This document shows positions 7,337-41,202 of a stretch of 64,000 bases of DNA, in pieces (the first letter of the stretch is position 1; every line of letters begins with the position of its first letter). Position numbers and translations under genes: made by a program. The notes beneath the pieces are model-generated. The model searched no databases. It saw nothing but the letters and a program-made list of their open reading frames with translations, and had not been told where the DNA came from. The DNA is taken from assembly GCA_944390725.1 (NCBI GenBank), contig CALXQU010000007.1, positions 1 to 64,000 of the forward strand. Direction: 5' to 3'. This DNA comes from an uncultured Spirochaetaceae bacterium (lineage in GTDB: Bacteria > Spirochaetota > Spirochaetia > Sphaerochaetales > Sphaerochaetaceae).

Positions 7337-7437
7337 CAGCAGCAAATGGTCCTGGTCACATGCGGATTCCGCTTACCGCTGCTGCATTCCTGCCCTGACG
7401 GGGTTCGGCGGCCCACATTGCCAAGTATCTGCTGCTG
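7337..7437 (-). ncRNA. ffs: Signal recognition particle RNA, small bacterial type
   Basis: The minus strand carries the SRP RNA domain IV signature, CCGTCAGGGCAGGAATGCAG followed by CAGCGG, in a hairpin whose ends pair exactly: CAGCAGCA at the 5' end and TGCTGCTG at the 3' end. Length is about 101 nt. The 3' side runs into a T-rich stretch (TTTGTTTTAAG) that could terminate transcription. Its 5' end lies two bases after the discriminator base of tRNA-Ser(GGA), so it is co-transcribed with the tRNAs and probably released by tRNA processing. dnaX follows, as in Firmicutes. Confidence 0.9.
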
Positions 7438-7439
7438 AA

Positions 7440-7525
7440 CGGAGAGAGGGGGATTCGAACCCCCGATGGCTTTTGACCATACACGACTTCCAATCGTGCA
7501 CCTTCGACCACTCGGACATCTCTCC
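7440..7525 (-). tRNA. tRNA-Ser (anticodon GGA)
   Basis: A class II tRNA with a 7-bp acceptor (GGAGAGA/TCTCTCC), D-arm TCCGAGTGGTCGAAGG, anticodon loop TTGGAAG, a long variable arm and T-loop TTCGAAT. The discriminator is G, typical of serine. It reads UCC/UCU. CCA is not encoded. It is the last tRNA of a five-gene array. Confidence 0.95.
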
Positions 7526-7543
7526 AGAAAAGGCTCCGTGTAT

Positions 7544-7631
7544 CGGAGAGAGTGGGATTCGAACCCACGGTAATGCAGAGCACTACACCGGATTTCGAGT
7601 CCGGCTCCTTCGACCACTCGGACATCTCTCC
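7544..7631 (-). tRNA. tRNA-Ser (anticodon CGA)
   Basis: A class II tRNA with acceptor GGAGAGA/TCTCTCC, anticodon loop CTCGAAA in a GCCGGA/TCCGG-type stem, an extended variable arm and T-loop TTCGAAT. The discriminator is G. It reads UCG. CCA is not encoded. Confidence 0.95.
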
Positions 7632-7634
7632 AAT

Positions 7635-7708
7635 CGAGACCAAGAGGATTCGAACCTCCGACCCTCAGTTCCGCAAACTGATGCTCTATCCAGCTGAGCT
7701 ATGGTCTC
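7635..7708 (-). tRNA. tRNA-Arg (anticodon GCG)
   Basis: A class I tRNA with acceptor GAGACCA/TGGTCTC, D-arm GCTCAGCTGGATAGAGC (A20 present, an arginine identity base), anticodon stem TCAGT/ACTGA with loop TTGCGGA, and T-loop TTCGAAT. The discriminator is G. The anticodon reads GCG, decoding CGC and CGU. Bacteria normally use ACG, deaminated to ICG, for this box. CCA is not encoded. Confidence 0.93.
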
Positions 7709-7738
7709 AAGAGCAATTGGTCATGCAATTGGGTTTTC

Positions 7739-7828
7739 CGGAGAGGGGGGGATTCGAACCCCCGGACCCGGGTTTGCCAGGTCAACTCCTTAGCAGGGAG
7801 CCCGATTCGGCCTCTCTCGCACCTCTCC
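7739..7828 (-). tRNA. tRNA-Ser (anticodon GCT)
   Basis: A class II tRNA with acceptor GGAGAGG/CCTCTCC, anticodon loop CTGCTAA within CTCC/GGAG, a long GC-rich variable arm and T-loop TTCGAAT. The discriminator is G. It reads AGC/AGU. CCA is not encoded. Confidence 0.95.
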
Positions 7829-7842
7829 AGGTCTTCCTCTAG

Positions 7843-7927
7843 CGGAGAGAGAGGGATTCGAACCCCCGGTGACTTGCGCCACGGCTGCTTTCAAGGCAGC
7901 TACCTTAAACCACTCGGACATCTCTCC
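7843..7927 (-). tRNA. tRNA-Ser (anticodon TGA)
   Basis: The first tRNA of the array. Acceptor GGAGAGA/TCTCTCC, anticodon stem GCTGC/GCAGC with loop CTTGAAA, long variable arm, T-loop TTCGAAT, discriminator G. It reads UCA and other UCN codons. CCA is not encoded. Confidence 0.95.
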
Positions 7928-35518: not shown

Positions 35519-36121
35519 TCAGGGGTTCTTGTCCAGCCCGATGAGGAACACCTCGAACGAATCATCCCTGGAGGCCTTCGGCTTGAAGGCCTTCGCCTTC
35601 GCGAACATCGTCCTCATCTTCTTCAGTATCTCCTGCTCCCCGCCGCCCTGGAAGATCTTTATCACCATGTTGCCATGCGCCTTGAGGTGCTCCTGGGCCA
35701 GTATCGTGACCTGTTCCGCCAGGTATTCCGACCTCGTCGTATCGACGATCCTGTTGCCTGTGGTCATCGGCGCGGCATCGGAGATGATGGCGTCATATGG
35801 CCCTTCTTCTATGAGGCGCGGCCTTATTCCGCTGGAGAAGGCATCTCCGGTAATCTCAGTCACCGTAGGAGGCATCGGGTCCAGCGATAGCGGGTTGAGG
35901 TCGCAGGAGACGATCCTGCCCTTGCCCTTTATGAGGCAGCGATGGGTGTAGAGGGTCCATGATCCGGGAGCTGCGCCCACATCGAGCACCGTATCGCCCG
36001 GCTTGATGATCCTGTGCGCCTGGTTGATCTCCTCCAGCTTGTATACCGAACGGGCCGGATAGCCCTCCGCATGGGCCTTCCTCGTATAGAAGTCAGCCTT
36101 GTCCCTTCTTGAAACCGCCAT
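35519..36121 (-). CDS. rlmE: 23S rRNA 2'-O-ribose U2552 methyltransferase
   Basis: RlmE (FtsJ/RrmJ) methylates the A-loop of 23S rRNA late in 50S assembly. The 200-residue protein starts RDKADFYTRKAHAEGYPARSVYKLEEI and has the SAM motif VLDVGAAPGSW, SDAAP and the KDKE catalytic set (Lys in ARSVYKL, Asp in SDAAP, Lys in VIKIFQGGG, Glu in SFEVFL). ATG 36121 has a promoter TTGCGG-N17-TAGACT ending 6 nt upstream and no ribosome site, hence leaderless. Two tandem structured elements lie upstream on the same strand. Confidence 0.95.
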   Translation of the reverse strand: MAVSRRDKADFYTRKAHAEGYPARSVYKLEEINQAHRIIKPGDTVLDVGAAPGSWTLYTHRCLIKGKGRIVSCDLNPLSLDPMPPTVTEITGDAFSSGIRPRLIEEGPYDAIISDAAPMTTGNRIVDTTRSEYLAEQVTILAQEHLKAHGNMVIKIFQGGGEQEILKKMRTMFAKAKAFKPKASRDDSFEVFLIGLDKNP

Positions 36122-36127
36122 GGCCTG

Positions 36128-36156
36128 AGTCTAATGGATTTCGCCCCGATCCGCAA
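36128..36156 (-). promoter_or_regulatory. Leaderless promoter of rlmE
   Basis: On the minus strand TTGCGG (36156-36151), a 17-nt spacer, TAGACT (36133-36128), six bases, then ATG 36121. The -35 touches the T-run of the terminator-like hairpin upstream. Confidence 0.55.
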
Positions 36157-36249
36157 ATAAAGACGCCGGACGGTGAGTATGGGGTGGGAGAGAACCGTCC
36201 GGCGAAGATTAACACACACTGCAAGGAGGTTTGTTAACGCTATTGCTCT
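36155..36249 (-). ncRNA. Tandem structured element, copy 1 (candidate small RNA)
   Basis: Read on the minus strand: AGAGCAA, a short spacer, AACAAACCTCCTT, AGTGTGTGTT, then an 11-bp perfect stem CGCCGGACGGT/ACCGTCCGGCG (36204-36164, 19-nt loop) and TCTTTATTT. The parts and their order match copy 2. The CCTCC segment is complementary to Shine-Dalgarno sequences. No protein gene lies upstream on this strand, so the terminator points to a small RNA or a leader of rlmE. No clear promoter was found. Confidence 0.45.
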
Positions 36250-36338
36250 GTAGCCTAAGGATAGGGCAGCTTGGCCTCCGATTCCATAGGGTTCATGCAA
36301 ATGACATAAATCTTCATCAAGGGGACACGGGAATGCGG

Positions 36339-36419
36339 GAAAGACAAAGACGCCGTTTCCACGGCGCCTTTGCTGAAATACACTAAAAAGGAGGTTTGTT
36401 TGAAAAAACTGTTTGCTCT
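36339..36419 (-). ncRNA. Tandem structured element, copy 2 (candidate small RNA)
   Basis: Read on the minus strand: AGAGCAA, spacer, AACAAACCTCCTT (36400-36388), AGTGTATTT, then the stem CGCCGT/ACGGCG (36366-36351, TTCC loop) and TCTTTGTCTTT. It is the diverged sister of copy 1, offset by about 165-185 nt. On the plus strand the same stretch reads AAGGAGGTTTGTT then a TTG-started 10-codon frame, a weak alternative reading. TTGCAC-N14-TATATC further upstream on the minus strand is a weak promoter candidate. Confidence 0.45.
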
Positions 36420-36474
36420 ACAAACATACTAGCAGGATGCGTGCCAACTTTATCCCGATATAATCGCGCATCTG

Positions 36475-36513
36475 TTGTGCAAATTCTTCACAGTGGGAAT
36501 TTTGTGCACATTC
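36475..36513. repeat. Direct repeat upstream of the rhomboid gene
   Basis: TTGTGCAAATTC at 36475-36486 recurs as TTGTGCACATTC at 36502-36513 (11 of 12 identical, 27 nt apart). It lies 90-130 nt before the rhomboid start and could be an operator for either that gene or the candidate small RNAs. A TATAAT at about 36462-36467 on the plus strand precedes it. Confidence 0.35.
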
Positions 36514-36602
36514 CCCCTTGCATTGCAATGCTTTGCGAAGTTCCATAGGAACTCCACTCAGGGCTGTTCTTGTTTTCCGCAGGCTATGCTATCGTCTTGG
36601 GC

Positions 36603-37235
36603 ATGAAGGACAGCATACTCAACCGTCGCATGCGCTACGTCTTCAACCCGTCGCTTATCCCCGCGATCATCGCCGTGGATATCGCGGTCTTCTGCCTGAC
36701 ATACTTCCTCTTCCCGAGGCTGATGTACCGGCTCGCGATGATTCCGTCAGCCGTGCTCTACGGCCACGCATACTGGCAGTTCGCCACCTATATGTTCTGC
36801 CATGGCGGCATCTGGCATCTGCTGATGAACATGCTGGCCCTCTATATGTTCGGCATGCCGGTCGCGCGCCAGATCGGCAGCAATGAGTTCCTGCTCTTCT
36901 ATCTGCTGACTGGGATTGCTGCAGGTATCATGAGCTTCTTCTCGTACTGGGCTGCCGGCATCAATGCCGTCCTTATAGGCGCTTCCGGCGCGATATACGG
37001 CGTCATGCTCCTCTTCTCCGTCTTCTATCCGCGCTCCGTCGTGTATGTATTCGGTGTCATCCCCGTCAGGGCGCCGCTGCTTATCGTGATATATTTCCTT
37101 ATCGAGTTCATGGGCTCCATGTCCATGCGCGGCGGCATTGCCCACGCCACGCATCTCTGGGGGCTCATCTTCGCGGCGCTTTACTGCATCGTCAGGCTGC
37201 GGATAAAGCCATGGCGCGTATGGTCAGCCTTGTAG
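36603..37235 (+). CDS. Rhomboid family intramembrane serine protease
   Basis: A 210-residue six-helix rhomboid. The conserved HGGIWHLLMNMLALYMFG loop and helix, catalytic Ser128 in GASGAIYG, and His184 in HATHLWGLIFA form the Ser-His dyad. The protease cuts membrane proteins within the bilayer. ATG 36603 is preferred over an upstream in-frame ATG because the family's N-terminus fits and TATCGT lies 7 nt before it; no ribosome site is seen. Confidence 0.88.
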   Translation: MKDSILNRRMRYVFNPSLIPAIIAVDIAVFCLTYFLFPRLMYRLAMIPSAVLYGHAYWQFATYMFCHGGIWHLLMNMLALYMFGMPVARQIGSNEFLLFYLLTGIAAGIMSFFSYWAAGINAVLIGASGAIYGVMLLFSVFYPRSVVYVFGVIPVRAPLLIVIYFLIEFMGSMSMRGGIAHATHLWGLIFAALYCIVRLRIKPWRVWSAL

Positions 37236-37305: not shown

Positions 37306-37554
37306 ATGGAAGGAAGAAGAGTCGCCATCCTAGGCATAATAGTCGAGGACTCCCAGTCCGTAGACTCGCTCAATGCCATCCTGCATGAATGCAATGAATG
37401 GATCATCGGCAGGATGGGAATACCATACAGGGAACGCGGAATCAGCATCATCAGCATCGTCATGGATGCCCCTGGCGATGTCATCAGCGGCCTTTCCGGC
37501 AAGATCGGCATGCTCCATGGCGTCTCCTGCAAGGCGACTTACTCAAAGATCTGA
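37306..37554 (+). CDS. TM1266-type iron-only hydrogenase system regulator
   Basis: An 82-residue ferredoxin-fold (ACT-like/NikR C-terminal-like) protein of the TM1266 family: RRVAILGIIVEDSQSVDSLN, IIGRMGIPYRERGISIISIV, LSGKIGMLHGVSCKATYSK. Members occur beside hydE, hydG and hydF and are thought to regulate the system, possibly by binding a metabolite; direct evidence is thin. It is the first gene of the maturation cluster, and its stop lies one base before the hydE start. Confidence 0.88.
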   Translation: MEGRRVAILGIIVEDSQSVDSLNAILHECNEWIIGRMGIPYRERGISIISIVMDAPGDVISGLSGKIGMLHGVSCKATYSKI

Positions 37555-37555
37555 T

Positions 37556-38569
37556 ATGGACCTGCTGGATAAGCTCGAGAAGGAAGGGACGCTCTCTGCC
37601 GGGGAGTTCCTCTCCCTGTACCGCATGCGGAACGCCATCGGCAGGGAAAAGCTTTTCGCCAGGGCCAGGAGGCTGAGGGATACAGCCTATGGCAGGGATG
37701 TCTATCTCAGGGCGCTGGTCGAATGCACGTCATTCTGCCGCTGCGGCTGCCTGTACTGCGGCATCAACGCATCGAACCGGTATGCCGTGCGGTACAGGCT
37801 TTCGCCTGATGAGGTGATTGATGCGGCAGGACGGGCATATAGGGCTGGGTTCAGGACATTCGTCCTCCAGGGCGGAGAGGATCCGGTATTCGTGAAGGAT
37901 CTGTCCACGATTATCCGCCATCTCAAGGACAGCTTTCCCGATGCGGCCGTGACCCTTTCGTTCGGGGAGTGGCCCGAGCCGCTGTATGCGGAATGGAAGG
38001 AAGCGGGAGCCGACAGGTATCTCCTCAGGCATGAGACGGCGACGGCAGGGCATTTCGCCAGGCTCCATCCTGCCGGGCAGACCCTGGAGCACAGGCTCTC
38101 CTGCCTGCAGGCGCTCAGGAGGCTCGGATACCAGACAGGCGCGGGATTCATGGTCGGATCTCCGTTCCAGAGCGAGGAGGATGTGGCGAGGGACCTTGCC
38201 TTCCTGTCTTCATTCAGGCCGGAGATGGCGGGGATAGGGCCGTTCATCCCGCACCATGATACTGTCTTCGCCTCATGCGGCGCAGGGAGCGTCGATGATA
38301 CCCTGTTCATCCTTGCGCTGATACGTATAGCGATGCCCAATGTGCTCCTGCCTGCTACGACTGCGCTGGCCACGCTCTCGCCGACAGGCACGCGTGACGG
38401 CATACTGGCCGGAGCCAATGTCGTCATGCCGAACATGACCCCTGCGGGAGAGGGCCGTTACGAGCTGTATGATGGCAAGAAGCGACAGGATGCCGGAGAG
38501 GCGATGCGGAAGGAGATCGAGGCGGCCGGATGCCGGATGGCTATGGTCCGCGGTGATTATAGAGACTGA
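37556..38569 (+). CDS. hydE: FeFe-hydrogenase maturase HydE
   Basis: A 337-residue radical SAM enzyme that takes part in building the dithiomethylamine-bridged subcluster of the H-cluster. The SAM cluster cysteines are Cys61, Cys65 and Cys68 (CTSFCRCGCLYCG). Other motifs are FVLQGGED, ERYLLRHET-like DRYLLRHETA, GFMVGSPFQ and GPFIPHHDT. ATG 37556 follows the previous stop by one base. It consumes SAM and releases 5'-deoxyadenosine. Confidence 0.95.
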   Translation: MDLLDKLEKEGTLSAGEFLSLYRMRNAIGREKLFARARRLRDTAYGRDVYLRALVECTSFCRCGCLYCGINASNRYAVRYRLSPDEVIDAAGRAYRAGFRTFVLQGGEDPVFVKDLSTIIRHLKDSFPDAAVTLSFGEWPEPLYAEWKEAGADRYLLRHETATAGHFARLHPAGQTLEHRLSCLQALRRLGYQTGAGFMVGSPFQSEEDVARDLAFLSSFRPEMAGIGPFIPHHDTVFASCGAGSVDDTLFILALIRIAMPNVLLPATTALATLSPTGTRDGILAGANVVMPNMTPAGEGRYELYDGKKRQDAGEAMRKEIEAAGCRMAMVRGDYRD

Positions 38570-38572
38570 CGG

Positions 38573-38601
38573 GGAAGGCATGCCTGACCCAAAAGGAGAA
38601 G
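38573..38601 (+). repeat. Leader repeat, copy 2, before hydG
   Basis: GGAAGGCATGCCTGACCC...GAGAAG mirrors the block at 37275-37303. Here the core AGGCATGCCT is a perfect 10-nt palindrome. It starts 33 nt before ATG 38606 (31 nt in copy 1). Conserved spacing from the start codon suggests a translational or regulatory element rather than chance. Confidence 0.55.
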
Positions 38602-38605
38602 AAGG

Positions 38606-40024
38606 ATGTATGATCCGAAATCAATGAAGGCGGAGGATTTCATCAATGATGCTGAGATCCAGGAGACGATCGCATGGGCGGAGAGCCATAAGGAGGATGC
38701 TGAGCTCATCGATGCGGTGATTGCGAAGGCGAAGCTCCTCAAGGGACTCAGCCACAGGGAGGCTGCGCTCCTGCTCATGTGCACGCTTGAGGACAGGAAC
38801 CAGGAGATATTCCATCTGGCAAAGGAGATCAAGAGGAAGTTCTATGGCGACAGGATCGTCATGTTCGCTCCCCTCTATCTTTCCAACTACTGCGTCAATG
38901 GATGCGTATACTGCCCATACCATGCGAAGAACAGGCATATCCCGCGCAAGAAGCTGACGCAGGATGAGATCAGGGCAGAGGTCATCGCCCTGCAGGACAT
39001 GGGCCACAAGCGCCTTGCCCTCGAGACCGGCGAGGACCCTGTGAACTGCCCTATCGACTATGTGCTTGAATCGATTAAGACGATCTACTCGATCAAGCAT
39101 AGGAACGGTGCCATCAGGCGCGTGAACGTGAATATCGCGGCGACTACCGTGGAGAACTACAGGAAGCTCAAGGAAGCCGGCATCGGCACATACATCCTCT
39201 TCCAGGAAACCTATAATAAGAAGAGCTACGAGGAGCTTCATCCCACTGGGCCGAAGAGCGATTACGCGTACCATACGGAAGCCCATGACAGGGCAATGCA
39301 GGGCGGCATCGATGATGTGGGATTCGGCGTCCTCTTCGGACTGAACCTCTATAAGTATGATTTCGTCGGGCTGCTGATGCATGCCGAGCATATGGAAGCC
39401 GTCTTCGGCGTAGGCCCGCATACGATTTCCGTGCCGAGGATCTGTCCCGCCGATGATATCGACCCGGGCGATTTCGACAATTCCATCTCCGATGCGATAT
39501 TCGAGAAGATCGTCGCCTGCATAAGGGTGGCTGTCCCCTATACCGGCATGATCATCAGCACGAGGGAGAGCCAGAAGGTAAGGGAAGCCGTCCTCAATCT
39601 CGGCATCTCGCAGATTTCCGGCGGTTCCAGGACCAGCGTCGGCGGGTATGTCCATCCGGAGTCGGAGGGCGAGAGCTCCGCGCAGTTCGATGTCTCTGAC
39701 CACAGGACGCTCGATGAGGTGGTGGCATGGCTGATGGAGCTTGGCTATGTGCCGTCATTCTGCACCGCCTGCTACAGGGAAGGGCGGACAGGCGACAGGT
39801 TCATGTCCCTCTGCAAGGCCGGCCAGATCCAGAACTGCTGCCTGCCGAATGCGCTGATGACGCTTAAGGAATACCTTATGGACTATGCATCTGACCGCAC
39901 CAGGGCAATCGGCGAGCCTCTCATCGGGAAGCAGCTTGCCGGGATCACGAACGAGAAGGTGCTGTCTGTCGTGCGCGACCGCCTGAAGAGGATCGAGGAA
40001 GGCGAAAGGGATTTCAGGTTCTGA
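38606..40024 (+). CDS. hydG: FeFe-hydrogenase maturase HydG (tyrosine lyase)
   Basis: A 472-residue radical SAM enzyme that cleaves tyrosine to give the CO and CN ligands of the H-cluster. The SAM cluster is Cys96, Cys100, Cys103 (CVNGCVYC). The C-terminal second cluster motif is CTACYREGRTGDRFMSLCKA then GQIQNCC. LALETGEDP, LFGLNLYKYDF and TSVGGY are typical. Its TGA overlaps the hydF ATG by one base. Confidence 0.97.
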   Translation: MYDPKSMKAEDFINDAEIQETIAWAESHKEDAELIDAVIAKAKLLKGLSHREAALLLMCTLEDRNQEIFHLAKEIKRKFYGDRIVMFAPLYLSNYCVNGCVYCPYHAKNRHIPRKKLTQDEIRAEVIALQDMGHKRLALETGEDPVNCPIDYVLESIKTIYSIKHRNGAIRRVNVNIAATTVENYRKLKEAGIGTYILFQETYNKKSYEELHPTGPKSDYAYHTEAHDRAMQGGIDDVGFGVLFGLNLYKYDFVGLLMHAEHMEAVFGVGPHTISVPRICPADDIDPGDFDNSISDAIFEKIVACIRVAVPYTGMIISTRESQKVREAVLNLGISQISGGSRTSVGGYVHPESEGESSAQFDVSDHRTLDEVVAWLMELGYVPSFCTACYREGRTGDRFMSLCKAGQIQNCCLPNALMTLKEYLMDYASDRTRAIGEPLIGKQLAGITNEKVLSVVRDRLKRIEEGERDFRF

Positions 40025-41202
40025 TGGCACATGGTTCAGCTCCGGCTGCAGAGAGGATGCATATCGCGTTCTTCGGGCTCTGCAATGCAGGCAAGTCCAG
40101 CCTCGTGAATGCGTTCTGCTCGCAGCCTGTCTCGATAGTATCGGCGCAGAAGGGGACGACTACGGACCCCGTGGTTAAGACGATGGAGATCCTTCCCCTT
40201 GGGCCTGTCGCGATAATCGACACGCCCGGAATGGATGATAAGTCCGAGCTAGGCCGCCTGCGCATAGAGAGGGCGGAGAAGATGCTCCGCCGTGCGGATA
40301 TCGCGGTGCTTGCCAAGGAGGCCGGCAGCGGCAGCTCGGCGGATGAGCAGAGGCTGCTTGCCGCCTTCAGGGACAGGGGCATACCCTGCATAACGGCCTA
40401 CACCAAGAGCGACCTGCTTCCATCTGTCCCGGAAGATGGGCCTGATTATATCTATGTCAGCGCCAGGGAAGGATGGAATATCGGCAAGCTGAGGGAGATG
40501 GTGGCGAAGCTTGTGCATGAAGCGCCATCAAGGCCGCTTGTGGAGGACCTCATCTCTGAGGGGGATACCGTGGTGCTTGTCATCCCCATCGACTCCTCGG
40601 CACCCAAGGCGCGCCTCATCCTGCCCCAGCAGATGATGCTCAGGGCGATACTCGATGCGAAGGCCATCGCGGTGGCTACCCAGGTCGACTGCCTTGCTGA
40701 TGCGGTATCGCGCATGGATCCTAAGCTGGTCATCACCGACAGCCAGGCATTCAAGGCCGTTGCGCAGATAGTCCCCGACAGGATCCCGCTTACATCGTTC
40801 TCGATCCTGATGGCCAGGTACAAAGGCGAGCTCGAGGAGCAGCTGAAAGGCGTCGCCGCCCTCCGTTCCCTCCGCAGGGGCGATAGGGTCCTTATCGCGG
40901 AGGGATGCACCCACCACCGCCAATGCGAGGATATCGGGACGGTGAAGATCCCCAGGCTGCTGTCATCCGCTGTTTCTGATGGGATATCCTTTGGCTTCGC
41001 TTCCGGGCATGGCTTCCCTGATGACCTGTCGGATTATGCGCTCGTAATACACTGCGGGGCCTGCATGCTTACCGCTAAGGAGGTCGGGAGCCGTATGGAG
41101 CAGTGCAGGGCGGCCGGCGTTCCCGTCACCAACTACGGGATGGCGCTTGCGGCCCTCAACGGCATGCTCGACCGCTCGCTGAGGCCCCTCGGCCTGTCCT
41201 GA
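40024..41202 (+). CDS. hydF: FeFe-hydrogenase maturation GTPase HydF
   Basis: A 392-residue GTPase scaffold on which the diiron subcluster is assembled before transfer to HydA. The P-loop GLCNAGKSS spans about residues 18-26, with DTPGMDD as G3 and TKSD as G4. The C-terminal [4Fe-4S] site is Cys295 with His297 (CTHHRQC) and His343-Cys344-x2-Cys347 (HCGAC). Translation is coupled to hydG. The hydrogenase itself is not in this window. Confidence 0.97.
   Translation: MAHGSAPAAERMHIAFFGLCNAGKSSLVNAFCSQPVSIVSAQKGTTTDPVVKTMEILPLGPVAIIDTPGMDDKSELGRLRIERAEKMLRRADIAVLAKEAGSGSSADEQRLLAAFRDRGIPCITAYTKSDLLPSVPEDGPDYIYVSAREGWNIGKLREMVAKLVHEAPSRPLVEDLISEGDTVVLVIPIDSSAPKARLILPQQMMLRAILDAKAIAVATQVDCLADAVSRMDPKLVITDSQAFKAVAQIVPDRIPLTSFSILMARYKGELEEQLKGVAALRSLRRGDRVLIAEGCTHHRQCEDIGTVKIPRLLSSAVSDGISFGFASGHGFPDDLSDYALVIHCGACMLTAKEVGSRMEQCRAAGVPVTNYGMALAALNGMLDRSLRPLGLS

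Follow-up and report, generated by a model that had tools for sequence, protein, structure and literature searches.

Tandem predicted small RNA genes with a sigma54-type promoter and an anti-initiation core in Sphaerochaetaceae, with relatives in other spirochaete families

Introduction

Two tandem structured elements on the minus strand of an uncultured Spirochaetaceae genome raise the question of what they encode and on which genes they might act. The window analyzed here is the whole stretch of 64,000 nucleotides in which they lie. An initial annotation had read the elements as two small RNA genes, each with a single-stranded anti-Shine-Dalgarno (anti-SD) seed and a terminator, and had suggested that such an RNA could act selectively on leadered mRNAs in a genome with many leaderless genes. 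Here we describe the genes, their promoter and their relatives, and ask which mRNAs they would be expected to bind.

Results

The tandem pair sits between a gene for a rhomboid family protein (36570-37235, plus strand; Pfam Rhomboid, 3.2e-29) and its downstream neighbor rlmE (35519-36121, minus strand), which encodes an FtsJ family 23S rRNA U2552 methyltransferase (Pfam FtsJ, 9.9e-42; TIGR00438, 5.2e-47, under its naming cut-off). The rhomboid gene is on the plus strand and diverges from the pair, in agreement with the earlier statement that no protein gene lies upstream on the minus strand. All the motifs and hairpins named in the initial annotation were present at this minus-strand place and in the order described.

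Small RNA A (36339-36419, minus strand; hairpin to 36345) is approximately 75-80 nt long, with a predicted transcription start at 36419-36421, and the start codon ATG is absent from its putative transcript. It opens with AGAGCAA (36419-36413), followed by AACAAACCTCCTT (36400-36388), AGTGTAT, a terminator hairpin (36372-36345) and TCTTTC. The terminator is the sole hairpin of A, which is thus built as a single-stranded stretch, AGAGCAAACAGUUUUUUCAAACAAACCUCCUUUUUAGUGU, and then the terminator. The seed region (36388-36410, minus strand) comprises an anti-start part, UUUUUUCA, spaced by AACAAA from the anti-SD part CCUCCUU; it was unpaired in the folds and near-invariant across 23 aligned A-type RNAs. 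The covariance model score of A was 82.5 bits.

Small RNA B (36158-36249, minus strand; approximately 90 nt) is found beside A in most relatives. Its AGAGCAA (36249-36243) and AACAAACCTCCTT (36235-36223) are followed by AGTGTGT, a hairpin (36204-36164) and TCTTTATTT. When the whole of B was folded, the CCUCC segment was held in a 5' hairpin, GUUAACA...UGUUAA (36209-36238, minus strand). Relatives of B have UUUUUCA...UGAAAAA at this place, with the CCUCC segment enclosed in 37 of 39 folds and its first one or two Cs usually paired. The large loop of the B terminator hairpin (36164-36204, minus strand), UUCUCUCCCACCCCAUACUCA, contains CUCUCCCACCCCA and holds a conserved second C-rich motif, CTCTCCCACCCCA; the loop letters UCUCCCACCCCA were invariant in 20 sequences.

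The window holds exactly two occurrences of the 13-mer AACAAACCTCCTT, where 0.56 would be expected even at two mismatches. The composite AGAGCAA..CCTCCTT..AGTGT was likewise present twice in the window and in 0 of 200 dinucleotide shuffles, and the folds of A and B were better than those of shuffled sequences (z-scores of -3.1 and -4.7, respectively). The earlier reading, in which a tandem pair of small RNA genes each has a single-stranded anti-SD seed and a terminator, is supported, and we treat the elements below as predicted genes of this kind.

A near-perfect sigma54 (-24/-12) promoter of A, TTGGCACGCATCCTGC (36432-36447, minus strand; consensus TTGGCACGN4TTGCW), has its GC 12-13 nt before AGAGCAA. 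Among 142 elements extracted from the matches of a scan described below, the consensus was also found at positions left free by the search pattern, i.e., G in 134/142, T in 112/142, and A or T after the GC in 138/142. RpoN was encoded in 21 of 21 genomes. NtrC-type activators were present in every genome examined, and the window's genome encodes at least three that are clear; these include two response regulators nearest AtoC/NtrC (NCBIfam, below naming cut-offs) and another clear activator gene with no receiver domain. The marks of a sigma54-dependent gene, i.e., TGGCACGN4TTGCW with the right spacing, RpoN and activators, were found together for A, but not for B of the window. A general scan for consensus promoters and terminators gave no result at the locus, because sigma54 promoters are outside its scope and the hairpin loops of the terminators are long or their T runs short.

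Whereas most relatives have a sigma54 box before B, the window species does not. By sequence comparison, a possible -10-like element, TATCCT (36252-36263, minus strand), is a candidate promoter for B, and three same-genus loci (L003, L004 and L010) also have TATYYT before B. Because B of the window species, like that of a few relatives, has lost its sigma54 box, the two RNAs may respond to different signals. The window (36252-36300) and the same three loci also have a common TGAACYCTATAG-like stretch, together with TATYYT, in place of the sigma54 box.

At 29 nt upstream of the sigma54 box of A lies a 17-bp palindrome, TGTGAAGAATTTGCACA (36476-36492, minus strand), a putative enhancer site for a sigma54 activator. 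In most relatives, a dyad of the form TGTGMAN5TKCACA lies approximately 45-70 nt before the sigma54 box. It had a single match in the sampled window genome (G000), at the small RNA locus, and one match at the small RNA locus in most same-genus genomes. As the palindrome is single in the sampled genome and has a similar placing across the family, it is likely to be bound by a dedicated activator.

Other sigma54 boxes were seen in the window's genome. One, TTGGCACGCCTCCTGC (G000 C18, 28757-28771), precedes a gene for an RpoS/RpoD-like sigma factor (L151, 6172-7182, plus strand), an arrangement that recalls the sigma54-to-RpoS (RpoN-RpoS) cascade of Borrelia (PMC3037356). Another (G000 C13:65389-65403; L147) lies just before a gene starting MRYYISSAAPYISDIGSFFDDFF, possibly for a small heat-shock protein.

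By DNA search, the locus was present in nearly all of 35 same-genus genomes. A pattern consisting of the sigma54 box, AGAGCAA and CCTCCTT was then applied to approximately 85,000 species, with one genome per species, and yielded 93 stretches, every one of them with a spirochaete title. Carriers include Sphaerochaeta halotolerans, Bullifex porci, Pleomorphochaeta and Candidatus Ornithospirochaeta, and the pair is kept through the window's genus and Sphaerochaetaceae. Many of the genomes are metagenome assemblies, the window's own being approximately 84% complete.

In these relatives the single-stranded core, AGAGCAA-CAGUUUUUUCA-CCUCCUU, stays fixed while the terminator stems change. Compensatory stem changes, which the initial annotation had set as a test, were found in both genes. 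Six of the 10 pairs in the A terminator had changed on both sides, with 98.3% of cells paired and none of 500 shuffles as good; in the B terminator this was the case for eight of 11 pairs (98.2% of cells paired), a count reached by 0/500 shuffles. The B terminator exceeded shuffles in the other measures, but not in its number of further pair types. Covariation was counted within the genus only, as a MAFFT alignment over all classes misaligned the CCUCC block. An own promoter, an intrinsic terminator, no reading frame and compensatory structure changes are what defines a trans-acting small RNA gene, and all of these were found.

The same data bear on the idea that DNA features alone matter, with the sigma54 and activator sites serving neighbor genes and the short transcripts being by-products. 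While the sigma54 boxes are the strongest feature and the neighbors are conserved, conservation of the core and, through compensatory changes, of the stems extends far downstream of the start, and families that have no sigma54 box still keep the core. We regard this explanation as highly improbable and favor genes whose RNA product is the functional part.

The arrangement rhomboid < > A-B > rlmE is conserved, with the rhomboid gene diverging in most loci; in 67 of 94, rlmE is the next gene downstream and has the same orientation, mostly approximately 150-180 nt from the last sigma54 box. Sphaerochaeta-type genomes carry three to four tandem copies at the same locus (L203, G282 C1; L207, G264 C1; L081), and a rumen clade has the RNA at an unrelated locus, beside apt. 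The proximity of rlmE would suit a leader or attenuator of that gene, in which sigma54-driven transcription enters, the hairpins stop it early and a signal permits read-through. In most relatives, however, either RNA has a promoter and a terminator of its own, tandem copies reach four (L203), the RNA occurs away from rlmE in the rumen clade and in other families, and an alternative anti-terminator pairing was not seen. An attenuator is therefore unlikely, and separate small RNA genes are the reading that we retain.

The covariance model of A (R1) was run on 297 Spirochaetia genomes and gave matches in other families, of which those inspected were either clear homologues or false matches. The matches in two families (f19 and f24) and at three loci (L194, L198 and L199) were judged false, having no CCUCC core or lying inside other features. 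With a pattern of the homologues' core, TTTTTCATNNACCTCCTTTT, small RNAs were found in at least eight other Spirochaetia families. Their core, UUUUUCAUnnACCUCCUUUU, is exactly the reverse complement of AAAAGGAGGTNNATGAAAAA, and the terminator loop carries a second CCUCC. In most of them this loop repeats (A)CCUCCUUUU, the promoter is of the TGTAAC type and a sigma54 box is absent. These RNAs adjoin pgi and often also pfp. In these families (L213, L225, L229, L234 and L239), the RNA gene often converges on pgi and has a phosphofructokinase gene immediately upstream, a neighborhood that makes a link to sugar metabolism possible. The order of the motifs suggests that the sigma54 branch and the pgi-linked branch are likely to share descent.

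The core itself suggests how targets may be chosen. CUUUUUCAUnGACCUCCUUUU is the reverse complement of AAAAGGAGGUCnAUGAAAAAG, i.e., a Shine-Dalgarno (SD) sequence, a spacer, the start codon and two lysine codons, the core as a whole being the reverse complement of SD, AUG and AAA AAA. The linker between the anti-start part and CCUCC varies from 0 to 6 nt. The initial annotation had left out this anti-start-codon part of the core, as well as the sigma54 promoter, the palindrome and the B-loop motif. Its supposition of many leaderless genes was not supported, with an SD match of 5 nt or more in 48% of called genes of a 461-kb sample, an upper estimate as start choice favors SD, vs. 8.5% for shuffled upstream sequences; in the window itself, 44% of genes had an SD match. 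Moreover, any anti-SD RNA would trivially be selective for leadered mRNAs, and pairing with the start and lysine codons is predicted to be a better source of target choice than SD alone.

Targets were predicted in three genomes on samples of approximately 400-460 kb per genome, with accessibility ignored and with home-made gene calls that favor SD-bearing starts. Over all genes, real flanks paired no better with the RNA than shuffled flanks in the three genome samples, so that any preference is limited to a subclass and general repression of every gene with an SD is not favored. Purine hexamers at codons 2-3 were far commoner in exported-protein genes than in others (Fisher p of 3e-7 to 3e-10 in the three genomes), and predicted pairing with the RNA was stronger for the exported class (p of 3e-5, 1.5e-4 and 7e-6). 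The difference between exported and other genes was larger with the real flank order than in all 60 flank shuffles in each of the three genomes. Solute-binding-protein-like products were, as judged by eye, frequent among the exported top predictions; the number of exported genes in the top 25 was above the shuffle mean, but not above every shuffle. Overall, the predicted preference for exported proteins is a moderate effect.

No long gene-specific complementarity was found: when the locus was compared by BLAST with the genome that carries it in search of extended complementary targets, the sole match was another sigma54 box. A search with the B loop's complement hit the small RNA locus itself and gave no clear conserved target elsewhere.

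Alternatively, the RNAs might not bind mRNA but serve as a decoy for a protein or the ribosome, given that the CCUCC core mimics the 16S rRNA 3' end (UCACCUCCUUU). Judged against the usual 16S rRNA 3' tail, this likeness is exact for UCACCUCCUU(U) in several B-type RNAs, and the 40-nt single-stranded region is conserved beyond the needs of one short seed. A decoy, however, has no need for the UUUUUUCAU part in register with CCUCC, and the 0-6 nt variation of the linker fits pairing to start regions with variable SD spacing. We consider a decoy rather improbable and pairing with mRNA start regions the better account of the core.

Discussion

The genes described here probably encode trans-acting, base-pairing small RNAs, specific to spirochaetes and, in the case of A, driven by sigma54, that block translation initiation at the SD and start region, preferentially in mRNAs of exported (solute-binding) proteins. 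Sigma54 RNA polymerase, together with an enhancer-binding protein at the upstream palindrome, would transcribe A, and B would in most relatives be transcribed from its own sigma54 box; the intrinsic terminator would end each RNA. The exposed core, UUUUUUCA-x-CCUCCUU, could then pair with the SD and AUG AAA AAA of target mRNAs and block the ribosome, with the B terminator loop contributing a second C-rich seed. Likely targets would be transcripts for exported proteins, chiefly the solute-binding proteins of ABC transporters, whose genes begin Met-Lys-Lys. Hfq (PF17209) was found in 0 of 21 genomes, so the RNAs do not qualify as Hfq-dependent and would use another chaperone or need none.

Several known small RNAs share single features with the family. 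RsaE/RoxS and RepG have a C-rich single-stranded seed aimed at G-rich leaders, which in RepG lies in the terminator loop. The present RNAs resemble them in the C-rich seed but differ in promoter and body, and the RsaE model reached 14.4 bits against a threshold of 79. Qrr and GlmY/GlmZ are, besides NrsZ, other sigma54-driven small RNAs. With NrsZ, Qrr and GlmY/GlmZ the RpoN-type promoter is shared, whereas the body of NrsZ differs. The best Rfam model was P11 (RF00625), which we take to be NrsZ; its 19.7 bits fell short of the threshold of 70 and the aligned part was mostly the sigma54 box, which places the RNAs outside that family. NrsZ is itself a small RNA gene driven by RpoN and an NtrC-type activator (PMC8395346).

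The csRNAs of Streptococcus have an unpaired anti-SD and anti-start (CAU) region that is thought to block initiation, and, as here, several related copies occur per genome, in their case under one regulator as the CiaRH regulon (PMC3091779). The likeness is functional, and no sequence homology is claimed: many copies, as well as the other families, have CAU and CCUCC, while the window copies have CA(A) for CAU. The csRNAs differ in having their unpaired region between two stem-loops and in depending on CiaR, and A has neither two flanking stem-loops nor a CiaR-dependent promoter. Instead, the present genes have a sigma54 promoter with an enhancer site, a seed 5' of the terminator and, in B, an extra C-rich terminator loop.

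Alphaproteobacterial alpha-r14/NfeR1 and cuckoo RNAs, for which ABC transporter mRNAs are most of the predicted targets, similarly carry repeated anti-SD motifs in unpaired regions and variable stems (PMC10746234). They have CCUCCUCCC in three hairpins and an RpoD promoter, in contrast to CCUCCUU with UUUUUUCA(U) and sigma54 here. The defining CCUCCUCCC in several hairpin loops was not found, the motifs here being CCUCCUU and CUCUCCCACCCC.

Rfam searches at gathering and permissive thresholds gave noise only, with no model for the elements. At locus L032 (6299-6437, minus strand), two Rfam mir-598 matches below the cut-off point to a repeated hairpin; the family identity is surely spurious, mir-598 being an animal microRNA family. 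Neither Rfam 15 nor the literature searched, which leaves most subscription journals outside, contained a small RNA of Sphaerochaetaceae. The family is thus undescribed in the databases and papers searched, and it recurs across much of Spirochaetia.

The family combines a fixed anti-initiation core with sigma54 control in genomes that, as far as sampled, have no Hfq, and it offers an entry to post-transcriptional control in a class that has been little studied. The palindrome makes the activator and its signal directly testable, and the core illustrates a way in which targets could be chosen by the MKK start that exported proteins have in common. As to physiological role, a wider proposal is tentative and in our judgment possible rather than probable: class-wide, Hfq-independent spirochaete small RNAs may be a ready-made antisense of the generic "SD + AUG-AAA-AAA" start of exported genes, their control having been rewired in Sphaerochaetaceae from an ordinary pgi/pfp-side promoter to a dedicated sigma54 enhancer circuit. 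One signal would then repress the transporter proteome as a class and not gene by gene.

Two further features of the window were observed. A bacterial small SRP RNA lies beside four tRNA genes (7337-7927, minus strand), and beyond the rhomboid gene, at 37373-41202 on the plus strand, three consecutive genes resemble hydE, hydG and hydF of [FeFe]-hydrogenase maturation, as judged by sequence inspection.
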